From Flavobacteriales bacterium (lineage in GTDB: Bacteria > Bacteroidota > Bacteroidia > Flavobacteriales > ECT2AJA-044), in the NCBI GenBank assembly GCA_021296215.1, contig JAGWBA010000011.1, positions 1 to 44,707 of the forward strand: DNA of 44,707 nucleotides. The letters are read 5' to 3'. The notes beneath the pieces were generated by a model that was not told where the DNA came from, searched no databases, and was given only the letters and a program-made list of their open reading frames with translations. The stretch's first letter is position 1; every line of letters begins with the position of its first letter. The translations under genes were made by a program, and so were the position numbers. Positions 5,821 to 44,145 of this stretch are shown one piece after another.

Positions 5821-5851
5821 TCCCGGCATTAAGTCCGGGATTTCTTTTTTT
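5821..5851 (+). terminator. Rho-independent terminator, possibly bidirectional
   Basis: TCCCGG (5821-5826) pairs with CCGGGA (5835-5840) across an 8-base loop and is followed by a T-rich tract to 5851. It lies after the small secreted protein gene and directly against the 3' end of the regulator gene on the other strand; that strand has only a four-T run beyond the hairpin. A further weak pair, ACAACAC / GTGTTGT, flanks 5769-5808. Confidence 0.85.
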
Positions 5852-8800
5852 ATGCCGAAACCGAAGATGGAGGCACTCCAAAATGCTCTGTAAAACAGCG
5901 GGTGAAATAATTGGCACTGCTGAAGCCCACAGCATACCCAACCTCCTTGACTGAATATGAACCGATCCTTAAGAGTGCCATGGCCTTTTTCATGCGGTAG
6001 GTCCGAATGAACTGGGTTGCCGACAGTCCGGACACAGCCTTTAACTTACGATGTAGACTAGAACGACTTACACCAAGCACTTCAAACATCATGGATACGT
6101 CAAAATCTTCCCGACTGAAGTTTTCGCTAAGTACCTCCTGAGCTTTGAGAATGAAGGGATCCTCCGTAGGCACTTCAGTATTATCCGACTCTTGATTCAA
6201 GTACTCATTCCTGAAAGAATCGCGCAAGGTCTCTTTTGGCTTGAGGAGATTCCCAATTCGAAGAACAAGCTCCTGTTTGCTAAAGGGTTTAACCACATAA
6301 TCGTCTGCCCCTGTTCGCAATCCGGTCAACTTGGTCTCCAAGGCACTCAATGCGCTGAACAAAATTACCGGAATGTGACAAGTCTCATCTGTACCTTTCA
6401 CCATCGAACAGAGCTCGATACCGTCTACTTCAGGCATCATGATGTCGGTCAAGACTACGTCCGGAATCAATTCCAAAGCCTTGGCAAATCCCTCCCGACC
6501 ATTCTCTGCCTCTGCGATCCGGTATTCCGTCATGAGGGAGACCTTCAGGTAACTGCGGAGGTCGTCATTATCCTCCACGATCAAGATCAAAGGCTGATCT
6601 TCGTTTTCATGCTCTTCTACTCCGTTTTTACCCCATGACTCGATAGTGGGTATTTCTATTTCGAAATGCGATTCTTCTTCTTCTCGTTCCGATGATTCGT
6701 GGAAAGGTATGGTCAGAACGAAACTTGCACCGCCAAGTGAGGAGTGCTCTATCCAAAGATCTCCGCCCATTAGGTCGGCGTATTCCTTTGAAAGGGCCAG
6801 CCCACTTCCGGTTCCGCCGGCTCTGTAGGAATCGCGTTTTCCAACCTGATAAAAAGGCTTGAACACAGATTCGTGGTCCTCTGAATCTATACCTGGTCCA
6901 TTATCCTCTACTTTTATTTCAAAAGAATTCTCGGAATAACCTAAGGTTACATTTACCTGCCCCTTTTCAGGTGCGTACTTTATTGCGTTCGACAGGAGAT
7001 TCACCAGTATGCGTTCGACCTTTTGTCCATCATAGCCAACAGTTCTAGTCTCCGGCACCTCTACAGAAAGAGTGATCTCTTTCTCGCGAGCCAAGGTCTC
7101 CATACGCTCCGATACCCCATTCACGAATCCCGACAGCTCTCCAAGCATGAACTCGGGTTGAAGCATCCCCTCTTCGATCTTGTTTAAATCGAGCAGCTGA
7201 CTCACGAGCTGAAGCAGGTCACGTCCATTGCGTTGTGCGATATTGAGCAAGTACCTTTCACGCTCATCCGTCGAATCCTTGGACAGATCATTTATAGGAC
7301 CTAAGAGTAAGGTCAGGGGCGTTTTGAATTCATGAGAAATGTTCGAAAAGAATCGGATCTTTGCCGCTTCAAGTTCTTTGACCCTTTTGGCCTCGTTTCT
7401 TTAGAATTGCAACTAATTTCTCAGGGCAATTCTCCTGTTTCGGAACCGAATGAATCCGGCACCTGAAATGATCATGATCACGATATAAACCGCAAAGGCC
7501 ATTGGGCTCCTGAACCATGGAGGCCTTACATGCACTGGAATACTCATTATGGAACCATTCTCGGTGCCCTTCCAGTCGATAGCTTTTATACGAAGCTCGT
7601 ACTTCCCTTCGGGAGGCTCTAATAGGGAGACAACGTTGCTCGACCCCAAAGGAATCCAATCTTCTTTATCGGATATACTGTAGAAGTACCTCGTTTCGCT
7701 CGTTCTTGTGTAGTAAGGCCACAAGAACTCAAATCTCAACTGACGAGCTTCGGAGGATTTAAACTCCCAGAATTTACCGGGTGAAGGAGGCCGAGATTTC
7801 GGAACCGGCCTTCCGTTGCTAAAACACTGAATCTCCTTTAACTGAATGGGAATATCCTTAGGTTTTAGAACTAGATCCGTTGGGTCAAAAACGGTCAGAC
7901 CTTTCATTCCACCAAAGGCCAATTTATTCTTCAGTTTTACGGAAGACCGCGTGTTGAACTCGTTCCCTTGGATTCCCGTTCCGTAGGAATAATTCAAAAA
8001 AGCCTGCTTGGTCGGGTTAAATCTAAAGAGCCCTCTGTTGGTACTCATCCACAGGTAGCCAAGCGGGTCTTCTTCCAAGGAATAGACCGTAGTATTGGTT
8101 AGACCCTCTTCTACTCCATAAGAGATTACTTGGTCATTCTCCGGAAAATAATACAGCAGTCCGCTACCCCGGATAGTCATATATAAGCCGCCCTCGTCGG
8201 TACCGTGAATATCCGTGATCTGATAATCCGGGGACATGCTTTTGCCATAGGTACCATCGGGGTACAGGCGATGAAGGCCAAATAAGCTACCCATGAACAA
8301 GGTACCGTCACGAGCTTTGAAGACACAAGTGGCCGAATTCATCCATCGAGTGATAGAATCCTTGCAAAACCGCACCGCTTCAAATTCACTACTTACCTCA
8401 TCGTAGTACAAAGCATAAGACGAGGCAAAGGCAATGATGCGTCCATCGGCAGTCTCATGAAAGAGTTTAACTCCCCCATCAATTCCGTATCCCGTCTCTT
8501 TTCCCCTATCAAAAAATCGAACGCGTCCGTGTTCATCTTTGAGGATCACCCCCGATTGAGTAGCTACCCATTCCCTTCCTTTAAGATCAGAGAAGTAGTC
8601 CTTCACACTGTATCGGTCGCTGTCGTCGCGGAACGGTTTCACCAAGGTCGCAAAGTCCTCAAAAGTGGAGGTGCGCTCGTTCAGCTTCATTAAATCCCTG
8701 AATAGAAATACGATCTCATTGGACGGCCCCAACCGTAGCATAGGAATGTAGTTCTCGAGGTTCTCGCTGCCCGCTCGTCGCCCCCCATTGGCAAAGTATT

Positions 8801-9896
8801 CAAATGGTGTATCCCTCGGGCTGCAGATATAAAACCCTTCGCCATTTCCGCCGATCAATATTTGACCATCCTTGAGACGAGCGAACTTTTGCGCCGAGAT
8901 ATCGGAACCTATCCTCAACTTGCTCATTGGAAACAGTGCCGAATCCGCCTCCTCGTCGTACAGAAACAATCCCTCCAAACAATTGATCCACAGAATTCCG
9001 TTTCCATCGCGAATCATAGATGAAATACTCACTCCGGGGAAGTGCCTCCGAAAATCTATGCTCTTACTTTTTCAGGTTCGCAAATCGAACTTGATCATGA
9101 CCCCCCTCAAAGAGGTTAAATACAGCTTATCTCCTTCCTTCAGTATCCAACGGAAGTGATCAAATTTCCACTTCGTGGGCGGATCCTCACCTAAAAACAA
9201 CTCGACTTCAGTAAACGTAGGAGCATCACCTAGAAAATCCACGCTGTAAAAAAGCTTATTGACGCTGGTTATCCAAAGCGTATCTCCACTTACCTCTATA
9301 TCGTAGACCGATCCATACGGCCTTCCAAACTCTATCGATGGATACCTGTTCGCCGCTCAGGAATCCAATGCTTCAACCTCGCTCCAGTCGCTACCAACCG
9401 AAATCTTACCTATGCGACCAAGCCGATCTAAAAACACGATCTCACCGGAGGGCATTTCCCTAAAGGTCTTGATCTCACCCCAGCGCTTATCGACCAATTG
9501 CGTATCGGAAGGAATCCGATGAACGTTCTGACGTTCCCGATCGATCACGTTGATCTCTCCATCCATCATGCCCAACCACAAACGCCCGAAACGATCTTCG
9601 AACATGGCGTTAACCTCATTCAAACTCAAGGAGTTAGAATCGGCCGGATTATGATAAAAGTGATCGAATTCAACACCGTCATAGCGGTCGAGTCCGCCCG
9701 GTGTGGCCAACCAAATATACCCTCGATGATCTTCGAGTATATTCATGACCAAGCCCTGCGACAATCCTTGCTCGGTCGTCACTAGCTCATACTCGTAATA
9801 GGCATTCCGTTCAAACTCCCGTTCCCCGTCGTAGGCAGGAACGAAAAGGAGTACTAAAAGCATGATCGAAAGCCGGTGGTAGACTTTCGCATTCAT
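5850..9896 (-). pseudogene. Hybrid two-component system regulator (HTCS), four in-frame stop codons
   Basis: Without stops this is a 1348-aa one-piece sensor/regulator, the usual HTCS length. Order: signal peptide (1-25), periplasmic propeller repeats (for example GLSQGLVMNILEDHRGYIWL, LEEDPLGYLWMSTNRGLFRF), Y_Y_Y domain (about 720-790), one membrane helix (about 795-820), HisKA with the phospho-acceptor in FFSNISHEFKTPLTLL (His 855), HATPase (about 925-1040, DNGPGID), receiver (about 1104-1217, VVLTDIMMPEVDG and VVKPF) and AraC-type HTH (about 1267-1348). All pieces share one frame, interrupted by TGA at 9357-9359 and 9072-9074, TAG at 7413-7415 and TAA at 7401-7403. The last two fall between the membrane helix and HisKA. 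Such proteins sense oligosaccharide outside and switch on the neighbouring utilisation genes; here the likely target is the upstream alpha-glucan operon. Function as one protein is doubtful unless the stops are base errors. Confidence 0.88.
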
Positions 9897-9925: not shown

Positions 9926-11715
9926 TTATTCAAGTACGAACATTACCGCCGTTCCGGGCACCGTATAATTCTCATTATCAAATCGGTACGCGACGGCCGT
10001 GGTCGAACTATTCAATAAAACCAGTCCATTTTTAGGGTCCTGGAAACGGAATCCAACGAACGAATTCGAAGTTCCATCGAGCCGGGTAAAGCGTTCTGAG
10101 TGTTCTTCCTTACTGTATTTTCCAATGCCTGGTTCCTTGCGGAACGATATGCACCTTCGCACCCATTCAGAACCCTCCGGATACGTTTCGAGCCGAGACC
10201 AATCGAGCCGATTAATACTGTCCGGAGATTCGTAGGAGTTCTCTACTCCGTACTTAGTGCGGTAAAACTCGGTTCCGGCATGTAAAAAGGGAATTCCTTC
10301 AGAAAGTAGTACTCTGCCCAGAGCTAATTGATGTCTCCTGCGCAGTAACGAATCCGATTCTTCGGGTAACGAAATTCTCAGTTTATCCCACAGGGTGTGA
10401 TTATCGTGGCAGCTCACATACGATATGAAGTTCGGATATCGGCCCGAACCTTCGAAGTTCAAGCGAACTCCTGGCAAACCTTTGTCATCGCCTTGAACCC
10501 AACCCCGATCGTGTTCGTCGAAGACCGACCCTTTGAAGCCATCTCGAACATCATCGCTAAATATGGCCACTTCCGGAAATTGGTCCGCATTGTCCTTCAA
10601 CGCCAACTGACCGTCCGGCAAGGGTGAACTCCCCGCTTTCCACGGCTCACCGTAAAGCAACACATCGGGCCGCAGACCCCGCAATTCAGAAGCGATCGCA
10701 TTCATGGTCTCTATATCGTGAATGCCCATGAGGTCGAATCGAAAGCCATCAATATGATACTCGTTCATCCAATACTTCAGCGACTCGATCATGAACTGCC
10801 GCACGGCCGGATGCTCGGACGCGATCTCGTTACCACATGCCAACGCATTGCTAAAGGATCCGTCCTAGTTCATGCGATAAAAGGTTCCCGGCGCCAAGAC
10901 CTCAAAATAACTGTCCTGCGTTAGTCGCGTATGGTTGTAAACCACATCCATGACCACGCGAAGGCCTTGTTGATGCATCGCTTGAACCAACTCCTTCAGC
11001 TCTCGAATTCGGACCGCGCCATCGGTCGGATCCGTACTGTAGCTGCCCTCCGGAGCATTGTAGTTCAGCGGATCGTAGCCCCGGTTGTATTGCGGCTCGT
11101 TCAAGCGCGTTTCGTCCACCGAGTAAAAATCAAAAATGGGCAACAAATGAACATGAGTAACTCCGAGCGACGCAATGTGCGGCAATACCACGGGCGGCTC
11201 CGCCAACCCCTTGAAGGTTCCCGGATGCTGTGCTCGTGGACCGGGATCGATAGTAGCATCGCGCACGTGCAGCAGTTCATGATCGATTCGCCCAGCGAGC
11301 CCAATGCGGGAGGTGTGTCCGACTCCCAACCGGCCGGATCCGTTCTATCTAGATCGATCACCTGCGCCCGCACGCCATTCGTTCCGACCGCAACGGCAAA
11401 CGGATCGGGTACAGCGCGGGACCAAGCCCCCTCTCGATACACCGAAAACGCATAATACGCTCCGGCCAAATCGCCCTCGAAACTTCCGAACCATGTATTG
11501 TCATCACCAGCCTGCAGAATACAATTCGCCGTATCCGGTCCACCCAAATCGGCGGCGTAATAATGAATGCGCACCGAATCCGCCTTCGTGGCCAACAGCT
11601 TGAACGAGGATCGCTCCGGGGTGTAAGTCAGTTCAAAATCTTTTGGTGGTTCGGATGCCTTGCGGCACGATAGGCAAGCGAGCATACAAAGGCCAACGAA
11701 GCGGATGCTTTTCAT
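9926..11715 (-). pseudogene. pulA: Type I pullulanase (GH13), frameshift plus in-frame stop
   Basis: Debranching enzyme cleaving alpha-1,6 bonds of pullulan, glycogen or limit dextrins. The N-terminus is a lipoprotein signal (LCMLACLSC), then a CBM48-like region (about 30-130). The GH13 core shows YNRGYDPLNYNAPEGSYS (pullulanase signature), region I VVMDVVYNHT, region II DGFRFDLMGIHD (nucleophile Asp), region III LLYGEPW (acid Glu) and region IV SYVSCHDNHT. The frame changes near 11278-11290: the N-terminal frame ends in LGSLGES while HELLHVRDATIDP continues one frame over, consistent with one lost base. A TAG at 10865-10867 then interrupts YRMN / DGSFSNALACGNE, after which the frame runs on unbroken. 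Repaired, it would be about 597 aa. It lies 29 bases before the HTCS gene and 23 bases after the barrel gene, so the three form an operon. Confidence 0.88.
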
Positions 11716-11738
11716 TTTTATTCCATTGAATTAAGGGC

Positions 11739-12356
11739 CTAAAATAAATACCCTACTCGAAAACCCGCGTAGTGATGTGCCTCGAGTTCTTTTACATCGG
11801 GACTCGACCAGTTGAATTCGACGCTAAGTATCACCCCCCTCTACTGGGCTTCTACGCCGGCCATTCCATTCAACCTTCCAACATTCATTTGGTCGCGATG
11901 GAGCGCTTCGGGGTCCGATCCAAAAGGCGCTCCCGGCAAAGTAGCATCGTAAAGCACTGCGGTGGCGTCGATCCCGAACTTAGCTCTGACGTAGGTACGG
12001 TCTGCGGTTCGAGGCGCAAGGGGGGAATCCACCAATCCAACATAGGCGGTACCTCCTATACCGGCCGAGGTGTTCAGTGAACCGACATCGGTCCCGTATC
12101 GGCCCGAGAGGGCCCAAAAACGATCTCCAACGACATAATGAAGTTCGAACCCGAATTGCACAATGGGCATGGATCTTAGTTGCGCATCCCGGCCGTAGGC
12201 GGTGGAACTCCCTTCGAGCCGCGAATGGACCTCGTTTTGCAGTTCGCCTCCACGAACTTCGTCGCCCATGACCCCGCCCGAACTGTTTATGTTAAGCCGT
12301 GTACTACCGCCATTCGTCCATGCGGAGCGCTCGATCGCAAGAGACAGCGTAGCGGT
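11739..12356 (-). pseudogene. Outer membrane beta-barrel protein, N-terminally truncated, internal stop
   Basis: The sequence has alternating polar and hydrophobic strands with aromatic ends (IVQFGFELHYVVGDRFWALS, VILSVEFNWSSPD) and finishes in HHYAGFRVGYLF, typical of the last strand of a Bacteroidota outer membrane barrel. Only the part from 12269 has a normal start codon, but barrel-like sequence (TLSLAIERSAWTNGGSTRLN) continues upstream to a TAG at 12357-12359. There is no signal peptide. A TAG at 11841-11843 interrupts GVEAQ / RGVILSVEF, with the frame intact on both sides. The upstream end runs straight into the oppositely oriented DUF6624-like gene, leaving no promoter. First gene of the pullulanase/HTCS operon; a glucan-related surface role is inferred only from position. 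Confidence 0.6.
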
Positions 12357-12380
12357 CTAGGGGCGGTTTCCGGGCAAACC

Positions 12381-12959
12381 ATGCCCGAACCGGTCACTTT
12401 CCCGGAAGGTGTTTACGAGCTCGATCAAGGAGTGCGCCGCGAACTCATGGGAGCCACCGACAGCATGTCGTTCGAGAAGGCGATAGACATTTACCGCGAA
12501 GAAATGGAGCGGATCGATGAGGCCAACTTGGATACCATGCTCGGTATTTGGCGCAAGTACGGTTGGCTTTCACCCGACCAGGTCGGCGGTAAAGGCGCAC
12601 ACGCGCAGTGGCTCGTTGTGCAGCACGCTCCGCTCGAGATTCAACTCGAGTACGTTAGTGTCATGAAAAAAGCAGCTGAAAAAGGTGGTCTGAGAAAATC
12701 GAACCTGGCCACCTTCTTGGATCGCGTAAATCTTCGGCAAGGGCTCCACCAAACCTATGGTTCCCGGATCGGCTATGGGCCCGATGGACAAGCTTACATT
12801 TCGCCGGTGAAAGATCCCGAAAACCTCAACGAGCTTAGAGAAGAGATGGATATGTCGACCATCGAAGAGTACGCCGAGAAAATGAGCATTCAATGGAACC
12901 TCCAAAACTACGTCGACAGCTTACCCATTTACCGCGTTTGGGAATGGGGATCGCAGTAG
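12381..12959 (+). CDS. DUF6624-like protein, probably lacking its signal peptide
   Basis: 192 aa from ATG 12381. The pattern LDQGVRREL near the start, then LDTMLGIWRKYGWLS, VGGKGAHAQWLVVQHA, NLATFLDRVNLRQGLHQTYGS and ISPVKDPENLNELREEMDM matches what I know of DUF6624 proteins (DQ..R, KYGWP, AWLIVQHA, LxDRxxxxxGxxQxYG, PIxDxxNxxxRR). No enzymatic role is established for the family. In-frame codons just upstream read GLGAVSGQTMPE, which looks like the end of a signal peptide whose hydrophobic start has been replaced by sequence of the opposite-strand barrel gene. This suggests a 5' truncation at about 12345-12360. The open frame back to 12180 is antisense to the barrel gene and is not counted. 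It converges on the serine hydrolase with 1 base between stops. Confidence 0.65.
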   Translation: MPEPVTFPEGVYELDQGVRRELMGATDSMSFEKAIDIYREEMERIDEANLDTMLGIWRKYGWLSPDQVGGKGAHAQWLVVQHAPLEIQLEYVSVMKKAAEKGGLRKSNLATFLDRVNLRQGLHQTYGSRIGYGPDGQAYISPVKDPENLNELREEMDMSTIEEYAEKMSIQWNLQNYVDSLPIYRVWEWGSQ

Positions 12960-12960
12960 G

Positions 12961-14304
12961 TCATTCTTTCTTAAAATCGGCCACAAACTGCCCTTGTTCC
13001 AGGTGAAAACAGCAGAATTCGCCCGACTCATCCTTTGAGAAGGTCATTACGATACCCGCGCGCTCCAAAGTGAACACGTCGTCTCCTTGAGGCTCCAACG
13101 GCAATTCGGGCTGTCCTTCGGCTTGAGCCGTGAGCTGCGCGCCATTGGTTCGGACTTCTATCGGTAATGGGAATGTTTCGCTTTTGTAGGTCCCCTCGAG
13201 CGAATGTAGGTACTCAGGGCTCAGGTCTACCTGCACGAACGTCGGCATTTCGAGGATATCGCCGTAAAATGCGGATGCCGCAACAGCGCGCATTTCATCG
13301 ATATCGTAGCGGACTACATTAGCCGTGAAGGCGATCGCCAAATCATCCTCCGGCACATAAACCAGCACTGCGGCGAAGTCGTCGATTCCCCCATTGTGTC
13401 CGAATCCCTCTTTACCGTGCACATCAATCGGAAAGATCCCCAATCCATATCCATCTTCCACGGTGGTCATCTGACTCAGTTGATCATCACCAATGAGTTT
13501 CCCCGAAAACAACGCCGTAATGAAGGTCGTTAGATCCTCGGCGGTGCTCACCATGCTTCCGGCCCCGTGCGGAATACTCATATCCGTTTCGGTCGAGGGG
13601 ATCCACCGGCGGCCATCCCATTCGTAGCTTTGGGCTTCATTCTGACCCTGCGGGTCGATGGGTCCACCGTAGTAGGTTCGCTTGAACTTGAGCGGCTTGG
13701 TGATCTTTTTCTCAACGAGTTGCGCATAAGATATGCCCGTTTCCTTTTCGAGAATGTATCCGAGAAGGACGAAATTCGAATTGCTGTACGAATGCTTGGT
13801 TCCCGGTGCAAACGCAGGTTCGAACTCGTAAATGCGTTGCAGCATTTGTTCGTGCGTTTGTGCCGTTTCCATGTACTCGAGGTATTCAGGATCGGAGGTG
13901 ATTGAATATATCCCACTTGAATGATTGAGCATTTGTTTGATCGTGATGTTCGCCGCGTTGGGGACGGACGGGTACCAGTTACTTAAAGGATCGTCCAAAC
14001 TCACATCCCCTTTTTGGACCAACTGCATAATCATGACGGCCGTGAAGGTCTTGGAGATGGAGCCGATACGGAAGGCGGTTTTATCGTCGGGGGCTACATT
14101 TCCGCTTTCATCGGTATTGCGCACTCCGATCGATTTGGAAAACAGCAATTTCCCATCGGCCCGCAGGGCCAAAGCACCCGAAGCGCGCTGGTGGGCATTA
14201 AGCGTGTCGAGATAATTCGAAAGTTGTTGGGTATTAAAATCCTGCGCGAAGATCGCCGCAGAAAACAAGACGAATTCGATCGCTAAAAGTTGGCGCTTCA
14301 ACAT
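12961..14304 (-). CDS. Serine hydrolase, class C beta-lactamase / esterase family
   Basis: Exported serine hydrolase of the beta-lactamase class C (AmpC/EstB/D-aminopeptidase) superfamily. The signal peptide ends near AAIFAQ (residue 21). The active-site SxxK is in FRIGSISKTFTAVMI (about residue 82), the YxN element in HSYSNSNFVLLGYI (about 168) and the third motif HNGG near residue 308 (FGHNGGIDDFAA). A C-terminal domain of about 100 residues (LEGTYKSETFPLPIEV onwards) matches the lipocalin-like DUF3471-type extension seen in such proteins. Length 447 aa is normal and the frame is intact. Substrate unknown: peptide, ester or cell-wall fragment are all possible; antibiotic resistance should not be assumed. 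Confidence 0.88.
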   Translation of the reverse strand: MLKRQLLAIEFVLFSAAIFAQDFNTQQLSNYLDTLNAHQRASGALALRADGKLLFSKSIGVRNTDESGNVAPDDKTAFRIGSISKTFTAVMIMQLVQKGDVSLDDPLSNWYPSVPNAANITIKQMLNHSSGIYSITSDPEYLEYMETAQTHEQMLQRIYEFEPAFAPGTKHSYSNSNFVLLGYILEKETGISYAQLVEKKITKPLKFKRTYYGGPIDPQGQNEAQSYEWDGRRWIPSTETDMSIPHGAGSMVSTAEDLTTFITALFSGKLIGDDQLSQMTTVEDGYGLGIFPIDVHGKEGFGHNGGIDDFAAVLVYVPEDDLAIAFTANVVRYDIDEMRAVAASAFYGDILEMPTFVQVDLSPEYLHSLEGTYKSETFPLPIEVRTNGAQLTAQAEGQPELPLEPQGDDVFTLERAGIVMTFSKDESGEFCCFHLEQGQFVADFKKE

Positions 14305-18089: not shown

Positions 18090-19072
18090 ATGGTAATGAA
18101 AGCCGCATATCGCGAAATATACGGAGGGGCTGAAGTGCTCGAATGGCGCGAAATACCTACTCCAGAACCTAGTGCCAATGAGGTGCGGGTTAAGGTTGTC
18201 TACACGAGTGTGAACAGGGCGGATTCTGAAGTCGTGATGGGGAATTACTGGTTATTCCGGCTTTTTACCGGCCTTTTTCGCCCGAAATACCCGGTTCCGG
18301 GGGCCGATGTATGCGGCATCATCGATAAAATTGGCGCTGGGGTGACTCAATTCCAAGTGGGCGACCGTGTAGTTGGTTTAAACGACAATAGCCATCCGAC
18401 ACAGGTCGAATACTCGGTATGGCCCGAAAAGAGCAGTTTGCGTAAAATACCAAGCGAAGTTTCGTTCAAGGATATCATTGCCTGTGCCGAAGGCGGATAT
18501 TATACGCTGAATTTCATCAATAAGGTGAATATGAAAACCGGTGATCGGGTTATGGTAAATGGAGGAACCGGAGCTATAGGCTCTTCGGCCATACAGATCC
18601 TGAAGCAAATGGGGTGTACCGTTGTAGCTACTCGCGGACCGAGCACCTCGAGCTCGTTCGGTGCTTAGGGGCGGAGCAGGTCATTGATTACACACGGGAC
18701 GATTTCACGAGAGTCGACGATCAGTTCGACTTCATCTTCGATTCGGTCGGAAAAAGTCGATTCAAGTATTGCAAACGAATCATGAAGCCCCGTGCAGTTT
18801 ACATCAGTTCTGAACTGGGCCCAAAGGCCGAGAATATCTGGTTAACACTGGCCGGATTGTTCACGAAAAAGAAGCGGGTAAAGTTTCCTGCTCCTTCGAA
18901 TCCGGCCGAAAACCTCGAAAAACTCATCGCCCTAATTTCCGAAGGCTCATTAAAGGGTGTGGTCGCTAGAGAATATCCTCTTGAAGAAGTTCAAGAAGCT
19001 TACACCTATGTCATTGGTGGGCAAAAAGTCGGGGCCGTACCGGTGTCTCTAGGCGCAAATACCGGAGGGTGA
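18090..19072 (+). pseudogene. Zinc-less MDR alcohol dehydrogenase / quinone oxidoreductase, frameshifted
   Basis: Medium-chain dehydrogenase/reductase acting on aldehydes, enones or quinones with NADPH. The GroES-like half (MKAAYREIYGGAEVLEWREI, VPGADVCGIIDKIGAGVTQFQVGDRVVGL) and the nucleotide-binding half (VMVNGGTGAIGSSAIQILKQMGCTVVAT, then RTEHLELVRCLGAEQVIDYTRDDF) are both clear but lie in different frames. The change occurs at about 18636-18642, where one base is missing between VVAT and RTEHLEL; the first frame ends at TAG 18666-18668. Repaired it would be about 327 aa. The catalytic zinc ligands and structural zinc cysteines of true alcohol dehydrogenases are absent. Flanked by repeat-rich, AT-rich intergenic sequence. 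Confidence 0.85.
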
Positions 19073-42954: not shown

Positions 42955-44145
42955 TCGCTTCGAGTGTGTAAATATTGTGTACCCTACCCCCCACTCGATC
43001 CAGTCGGCGGCGGCTCCATTCTGCGTTTTGAGTGCAATTTGAGCAAAGAACCGCGGGGTAAACTTGTAATTCAATCCACCCCGCGCCCAAACATCGCCCC
43101 GAGCGTCGATGGTCTTGTACACATAGCGACCCAATTGCGTCACCAATCCAAATTTCTCGATGTTGTACTCATGTCCCAGGTGCACACCGATATTCCGGTA
43201 GTCGCCTTTCACAGCTGGCTGCCCCATGTCCCACTCATCCGAGTTTTCGTAAAGGGATCCGCCGTAAAAGAAATCCACCCCGGCTGTCCAAGCACCTTTA
43301 TGACTGTACACCCTGCGAAAATCGAGTACGATACTGCTGGTTGCATACCGCAATCCTTCGGCCGAATCGCGCTCGGTCTGAACCGTTCCAATACTAACGT
43401 AAGTGTTTACATCGATCGACTTAGGCTTGGGTCGAGCGCCCCCGTATATTCGCTCCGGGCGGGCCGATAGTATCATATTGGGATCCTGAGCCTGGACGAA
43501 CTTTTGGAATGGGTTGAAATGGTATCGAAAACCGACATTGAATCCAACCATATTTAATCCGTAGTTCGGTGTAAATGAACGTCCATTCGAGAAATGGGTC
43601 AAATCGAGTCCGTAGGTCAAATCGATCTCGCGGTTGATCTCGCTTTTTCCAGCGAGGTTGATGTTGAAATACACCGTTGTGCGCGAGCCAATGGCGTCGT
43701 TATAGGGATTGGTCTCCGGGTCGTAGGCCTTAAGGTCGTATGTGAGTCCGGCCGCAACCTCCCAGAGCAAAACGTGTTTTCGTTCGGTATTGGTCAGGGG
43801 CTGTGAAAACCAAGCATATATCGCGTTCGGATTCCCCATGATCTCGGGGTCCCCGATGATTCCGGAATAATAGCCTATTCCGTAGCCGGGAAAATTGGCA
43901 TTGCTCTGCCGCCACTCCTTGCCGTACGACTCCCACCCCAATCGAATTTCGACTCCGGCATAGCCATTGTCCAAGAACCCTTCCAGGCCTTCCCCGGTGT
44001 ACAGGTGGGAGCCGCTGTGGCCCGTGATTTGCAAAAAGTTGAACTTACCGTAGTTGGGATCGGACACCGCTCGGTCCTACCAAGTCTGCCCGGTTACCCA
44101 TCCGCCCGAGAGGGCGAAAACCAAAATGGGTAAATACTTTTTCAT
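42925..44145 (-). pseudogene. Acyloxyacyl hydrolase (PagL-like lipid A deacylase), in-frame TAG after signal peptide
   Basis: From ATG 44145 the frame reads MKKYLPILVFALSGGWVTGQ, a good signal peptide, then TAG at 44077-44079 (codon 23) after TW, then DRAVSDPNYGKFNFLQITGHSGSHLY onward without interruption to 42925. The barrel carries the PagL-type active site in YGLDLTHFSNGRSFTPNYG (His and Ser in HxSN) and the following NMVGFNVGFRYHF. Repaired length is about 406 residues; longer than enterobacterial PagL (about 175) but usual for Bacteroidota members. It would remove the 3-O acyl chain of lipid A at the outer membrane, and its place beside waaA fits. It starts inside the stop of the upstream lipoprotein gene (ATGA) and overlaps waaA at its 3' end. 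Confidence 0.82.

Follow-up and report, generated by a model that had tools for sequence, protein, structure and literature searches.

How did two divergently oriented genes in a Flavobacteriales genome come to lose their 5' ends at one and the same point? A minus-strand gene for a barrel protein and a plus-strand DUF6624 gene meet there as remnants, and a sequence-only reading had proposed that one deletion took a divergent promoter and both signal peptides. The window (the whole stretch of DNA analyzed, 44707 bp) is contig C11 in its entirety, from a 2.53-Mb genome in 135 contigs. The family is represented by two genomes, this one and G001, a member of the same genus in one contig of 2.84 Mb, which served as the comparator. 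The window is collinear with ~43 to 83 kb of G001:C1, and synteny continues on both flanks of the LpxR/DUF6624 junction, which argues against a chimaeric contig. No named close relative was found when the DUF6624 pair was scanned against genome contigs, and a proline dehydrogenase scan of genome contigs returned 80 loci at a top identity of 56%, none of them from the window's genus. Literature listings on pseudogene-rich Flavobacteriales and on divergent-promoter deletions contained nothing about this locus.

Remnants of an lpxR and a DUF6624 gene

The minus-strand remnant (positions 11739 to 12368) belongs to the LpxR family (PF09982), as a six-frame profile search gave 50.3 bits over profile positions 101 to 321 of 323, and a 142-aa piece passed the profile cut-off (31.8 against 26 bits). 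In terms of the G001 protein, homology starts near residue 84 (profile position 101) and covers residues 84 to 292 and the stop codon, without the signal peptide and the N-terminal barrel strands. As the sequence-only reading had it, the frame meets a stop at 12357 and has no signal peptide. This TAG (12357-12359) aligns to Tyr87 of G001 LpxR and lies within homologous sequence, which runs three codons beyond it (NRP*TATL versus DRPYTATL) to 12368. A second in-frame TAG (11841-11843) aligns to V259. LpxR is a lipid A 3'-O-deacylase with a Salmonella structure (3FID), in which H122 is catalytic and D10 and D11 are cation-binding according to an excerpt of PMC6260217. When residues 31-147 of G001 LpxR were aligned to residues 20-137 of 3FID, the residue aligned with H122 was found to be retained here, whereas the places of D10, D11 and K67 fall in the lost part. 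The remnant therefore shares the C-terminal two thirds of the profile and the H122-aligned residue with LpxR, but has neither a start nor a signal peptide, and its frame is interrupted twice. Searches with the G001 LpxR protein and the PF09982 profile identified no second LpxR copy in the genome. Given the lost N-terminal part, the two TAG codons and the lack of another LpxR, LpxR activity in this species is very unlikely.

The plus-strand remnant (12360 to 12959) is a member of DUF6624 (PF20329), a family of unknown function, with 53.2 bits against a cut-off of 27 over profile positions 12-163 of 173. From 12360 its frame reads GAVSGQTMPEP, which had been taken for the end of a signal peptide without its hydrophobic start. 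This description held, since residue 29 of the G001 protein is the first with a counterpart here, leaving 28 residues missing, and no signal-like stretch lies upstream. The remaining frame is open for 199 codons and is 51% identical to G001 DUF6624 without internal gaps. It shares the domain with the G001 copy but not the native start and signal-like N-terminus seen there; a hydrophobic signal-like start also lies upstream of the DUF6624 match in another relative (L006). The first ATG within the surviving homology (12381-12383, plus strand) would, if used as a start, yield a signal-peptide-free protein. No second DUF6624 copy was found in the genome. In the literature searched, DUF6624 occurs in one paper, as a frequent neighbor in graspetide clusters, a setting unrelated to this locus.

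The two remnants were also compared with their G001 counterparts through outgroup scores. When scoring was limited to the residues that both share, G001 LpxR outscored the LpxR remnant at 7 of 8 outgroup loci, the pattern expected for a gene freed from selection. For DUF6624, bit scores over 18 outgroup loci were higher for the window copy in 7, higher for G001 in 9 and tied in 2. The window DUF6624 thus evolves no faster than that of G001, suggesting that the gene is still functional or lost its function only recently. LpxR may accordingly have been under no selection for longer than DUF6624, or under weaker selection initially.

Comparison with the intact pair in G001

In G001 (L022 8507-10049), LpxR and DUF6624 lie in the same order and divergent orientation, and both are intact with complete 5' ends. 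G001 LpxR (L022 8507-9385, minus strand) is an open frame of 292 aa covering profile positions 4-323 of 323, and G001 DUF6624 (L022 9366-10049, plus strand) is an open frame of 227 aa. Both begin with hydrophobic signal-peptide-like stretches (best 11-residue hydropathy of 3.41 for LpxR and 2.41 for DUF6624). Upstream of either remnant in the window, no such stretch was found in three frames, the best 11-residue hydropathy (1.2-1.5) being at the control level (median of 1.5 over 378 window frames). A normal pair had been expected to have two signal peptides and to be separated by 100-300 bases; both signal-like starts are indeed present in G001, but the two open reading frames overlap at their 5' ends by 20 bp. 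Outside the family no conserved pair was seen, as LpxR and DUF6624 occurred together at none of 26 outgroup loci within the fetched flanks.

At the window junction the two homologies meet within 12357-12375. Using tblastn, D84 of LpxR aligned at 12368 and G29 of DUF6624 at 12360, so the two blocks share 9 bp and leave nothing between them. The matching points in G001 lie at L022 9136 and 9450 (+314 bp), compared with -8 in the window, giving a net loss of 322 bp, with breakpoints located to within ~18 bp by one comparator whose two proteins are 42-51% identical to those of the window. This corresponds to 83 residues of LpxR and 28 residues of DUF6624. Since the N-terminal third of LpxR belongs to the family profile, its absence represents a loss here rather than an insertion in G001. 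The alignments thus support a deletion at the junction that includes both signal regions, as had been proposed, but the loss is larger than a promoter and two signal peptides, as 83 LpxR residues have also gone. A single event is the simplest reading, if not a proven one.

The promoter consensus of Bacteroidota is TAnnTT(T/G)G. A loose search for it gave no site near the junction, the sole match in 11700-12600 being at 12044 on the minus strand, which agrees with the earlier description of two remnants meeting without a promoter between them. G001 has matches at L022 9397 (minus strand, just upstream of lpxR) and 9316 (plus strand), although two matches in 800 bp could be at chance level. As had been suggested, promoters may have been lost with the deleted segment.

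Gene decay and sequence error

The junction does not stand alone. Besides the second TAG of LpxR, which is independent of the junction, other genes in the window are broken, among them the next ones on the minus strand, a sensor and a pullulanase-like gene. A hybrid two-component sensor gene (5850-9896, minus strand), the G001 orthologue of which is intact (1353 aa), contains four in-frame stops (9357 TGA, 9072 TGA, 7413 TAG and 7401 TAA) and no frameshift. A type I pullulanase-like gene (9926-11715, minus strand), not found at the corresponding place in G001, contains an in-frame TAG (10865-10867) and a frameshift near 11270-11330. The sole PagL match in the genome, a PagL-like gene (PF09411; 42925-44145, minus strand), has an in-frame TAG (44077-44079) directly after its signal-peptide-like start, which means that neither lipid A deacylase-type gene of this species is intact. 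Reassignment or readthrough of a stop codon was rejected as the main reading, because the in-frame stops of the window comprise TAG, TGA and TAA, even within one gene; no suppressor tRNA was present among the 13 tRNA genes of 40 stretches sampled outside the window, which make up about a third of the genome. Two further observations concern this contig: an alcohol-dehydrogenase-like gene (18090-19072, plus strand) is split by a frameshift near 18650, and the gene adjoining DUF6624 (12961-14304, minus strand) encodes a serine hydrolase of the beta-lactamase fold where G001 instead has a biopterin-dependent hydroxylase.

Lesions were counted by comparing 845 kb of this genome, made up of the window and 40 further stretches of 20 kb each, with 1.3 Mb of G001. 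Of the G001 open reading frames with a good match, 27 of 301 have a lesioned copy here (30 stops and 13 frameshifts). Five rows of this count (G000; L048 18355, L050 3507, L181 8371, L183 14647 and L056 9774) were removed by eye post hoc for upstream over-extension, likely antisense orientation or likely paralogy, after which 22 of 296 genes were lesioned (32 lesions). Not counted are the pullulanase and the stops at 12357 and in PagL, each of which is too close to the end of an alignment or lacks an orthologue at the G001 locus. In the reverse comparison 13 of 316 genes had a lesioned copy in G001, several of these rows being seemingly over-long or antisense frames, and the two genomes differ by a factor of only about two in these raw counts. 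Among the 13 are genes read as EF-Tu and RpoB at G001:C1 1589740-1598034, with frameshifts that are probably sequence errors of G001.

After the five removals, lesions were found in 4 of 160 genes with an identity of at least 80% and in 18 of 136 genes below this value. When lesions were permuted by gene length, none of 20000 permutations hit as few genes and none gave as low a mean identity. This dependence on conservation favors real decay over uniform sequence error, and the comparison suggests genuine gene erosion in this genome to which the assembly may add errors. Judged by eye, the broken genes are secreted or peripheral (peptidases, glycosidases, a sensor and a cbb3 oxidase-like subunit). 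A cbb3 oxidase-like gene at L185 9242-11413, 93% identical to G001, has one TGA opposite Trp with perfect identity on both sides, to be explained by a very recent break or by an erroneous base.

These data bear on the possibility that the two genes are normal in the organism, with reads of the divergent 5' region lost or mis-joined and the stops being base-call errors. Such an artefact would fit a draft of 135 contigs and the excess of nonsense over frameshift lesions in the sample, and PMC11017572 reports that surplus internal stops are often a sign of poor assemblies. It is nevertheless distinctly unlikely: lesions shun well-conserved genes and cluster in the same genes, no long repeat that could cause a collapse was seen by eye at the junction, and searches of the genome with the complete G001 LpxR protein and with the LpxR profile did not recover the missing segment at any other place. 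A succession of separate events, in which nonsense mutation of LpxR was followed by erosion of its 5' end and the DUF6624 start was lost in a later or overlapping deletion, is easier to entertain but still unlikely. The two stops that LpxR carries in addition to its 5' loss, and a decay that appears older than that of DUF6624, would agree with it; independent deletions, however, need not abut, and both losses stop at one point with nothing between.

That the compact arrangement is functional, with a DUF6624 that is now cytoplasmic, starts at ATG 12381 or further upstream and is still used, appears highly doubtful. The open, gap-free and non-accelerated frame speaks in its favor, as does a mechanically called open reading frame that reaches upstream to TTG 12180. 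Conversely, a hydrophobic signal-like stretch opens the protein in G001 and in at least one relative (L006), and no promoter-like site was found upstream of DUF6624.

Origin of the junction and its meaning

The most probable origin of the junction is a deletion of ~320 bp in an ancestral divergent lpxR/DUF6624 pair, as part of ordinary gene decay. The ancestor would have resembled G001, with divergent genes and overlapping 5' ends, and the deletion in the window's lineage would have fused lpxR at about codon 84 to DUF6624 at about codon 29. The same deletion would have removed the promoters inside the overlap, the two signal peptides and, from LpxR, the N-terminal barrel strands and the cation-binding region; one small deletion could take both 5' ends because the starts of the divergent pair overlap. 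LpxR would have been dead afterwards, as it has two stops, lacks a start and an export signal and retains only part of its active site, and DUF6624 is probably silent, or at best produces a cytoplasmic fragment from an internal start. We infer that the deletion is real in the organism rather than in the assembly.

An event of this kind is ordinary gene decay of a known type. As with ordinary bacterial pseudogenes that arise by deletion and nonsense mutation, deletion and stops affect dispensable genes, many of them in one genome, and an intact orthologue is present at the same locus in a relative; the difference is that here one deletion would have removed the 5' ends of two divergent genes. 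By itself, the LpxR/DUF6624 junction is one further gene-decay deletion, and it shows that divergent genes with overlapping starts can vanish through one small deletion. Seen alongside the stop in PagL and the damage to the sensor, pullulanase and dehydrogenase genes, it points to a genome that is eroding or poorly assembled. For annotators, short-protein open reading frames called at these broken genes are fragments. A tentative possibility, which we consider less probable than the deletion itself, is that the species no longer has either of its outer-membrane enzymes of the lipid A 3-O-deacylase type (the single LpxR and the single PagL gene both being cut off at the 5' end), and that this belongs to a recent erosion, rich in nonsense mutations, of genes for secreted and regulatory proteins, as might occur in a lineage moving to a protected or host-tied life.
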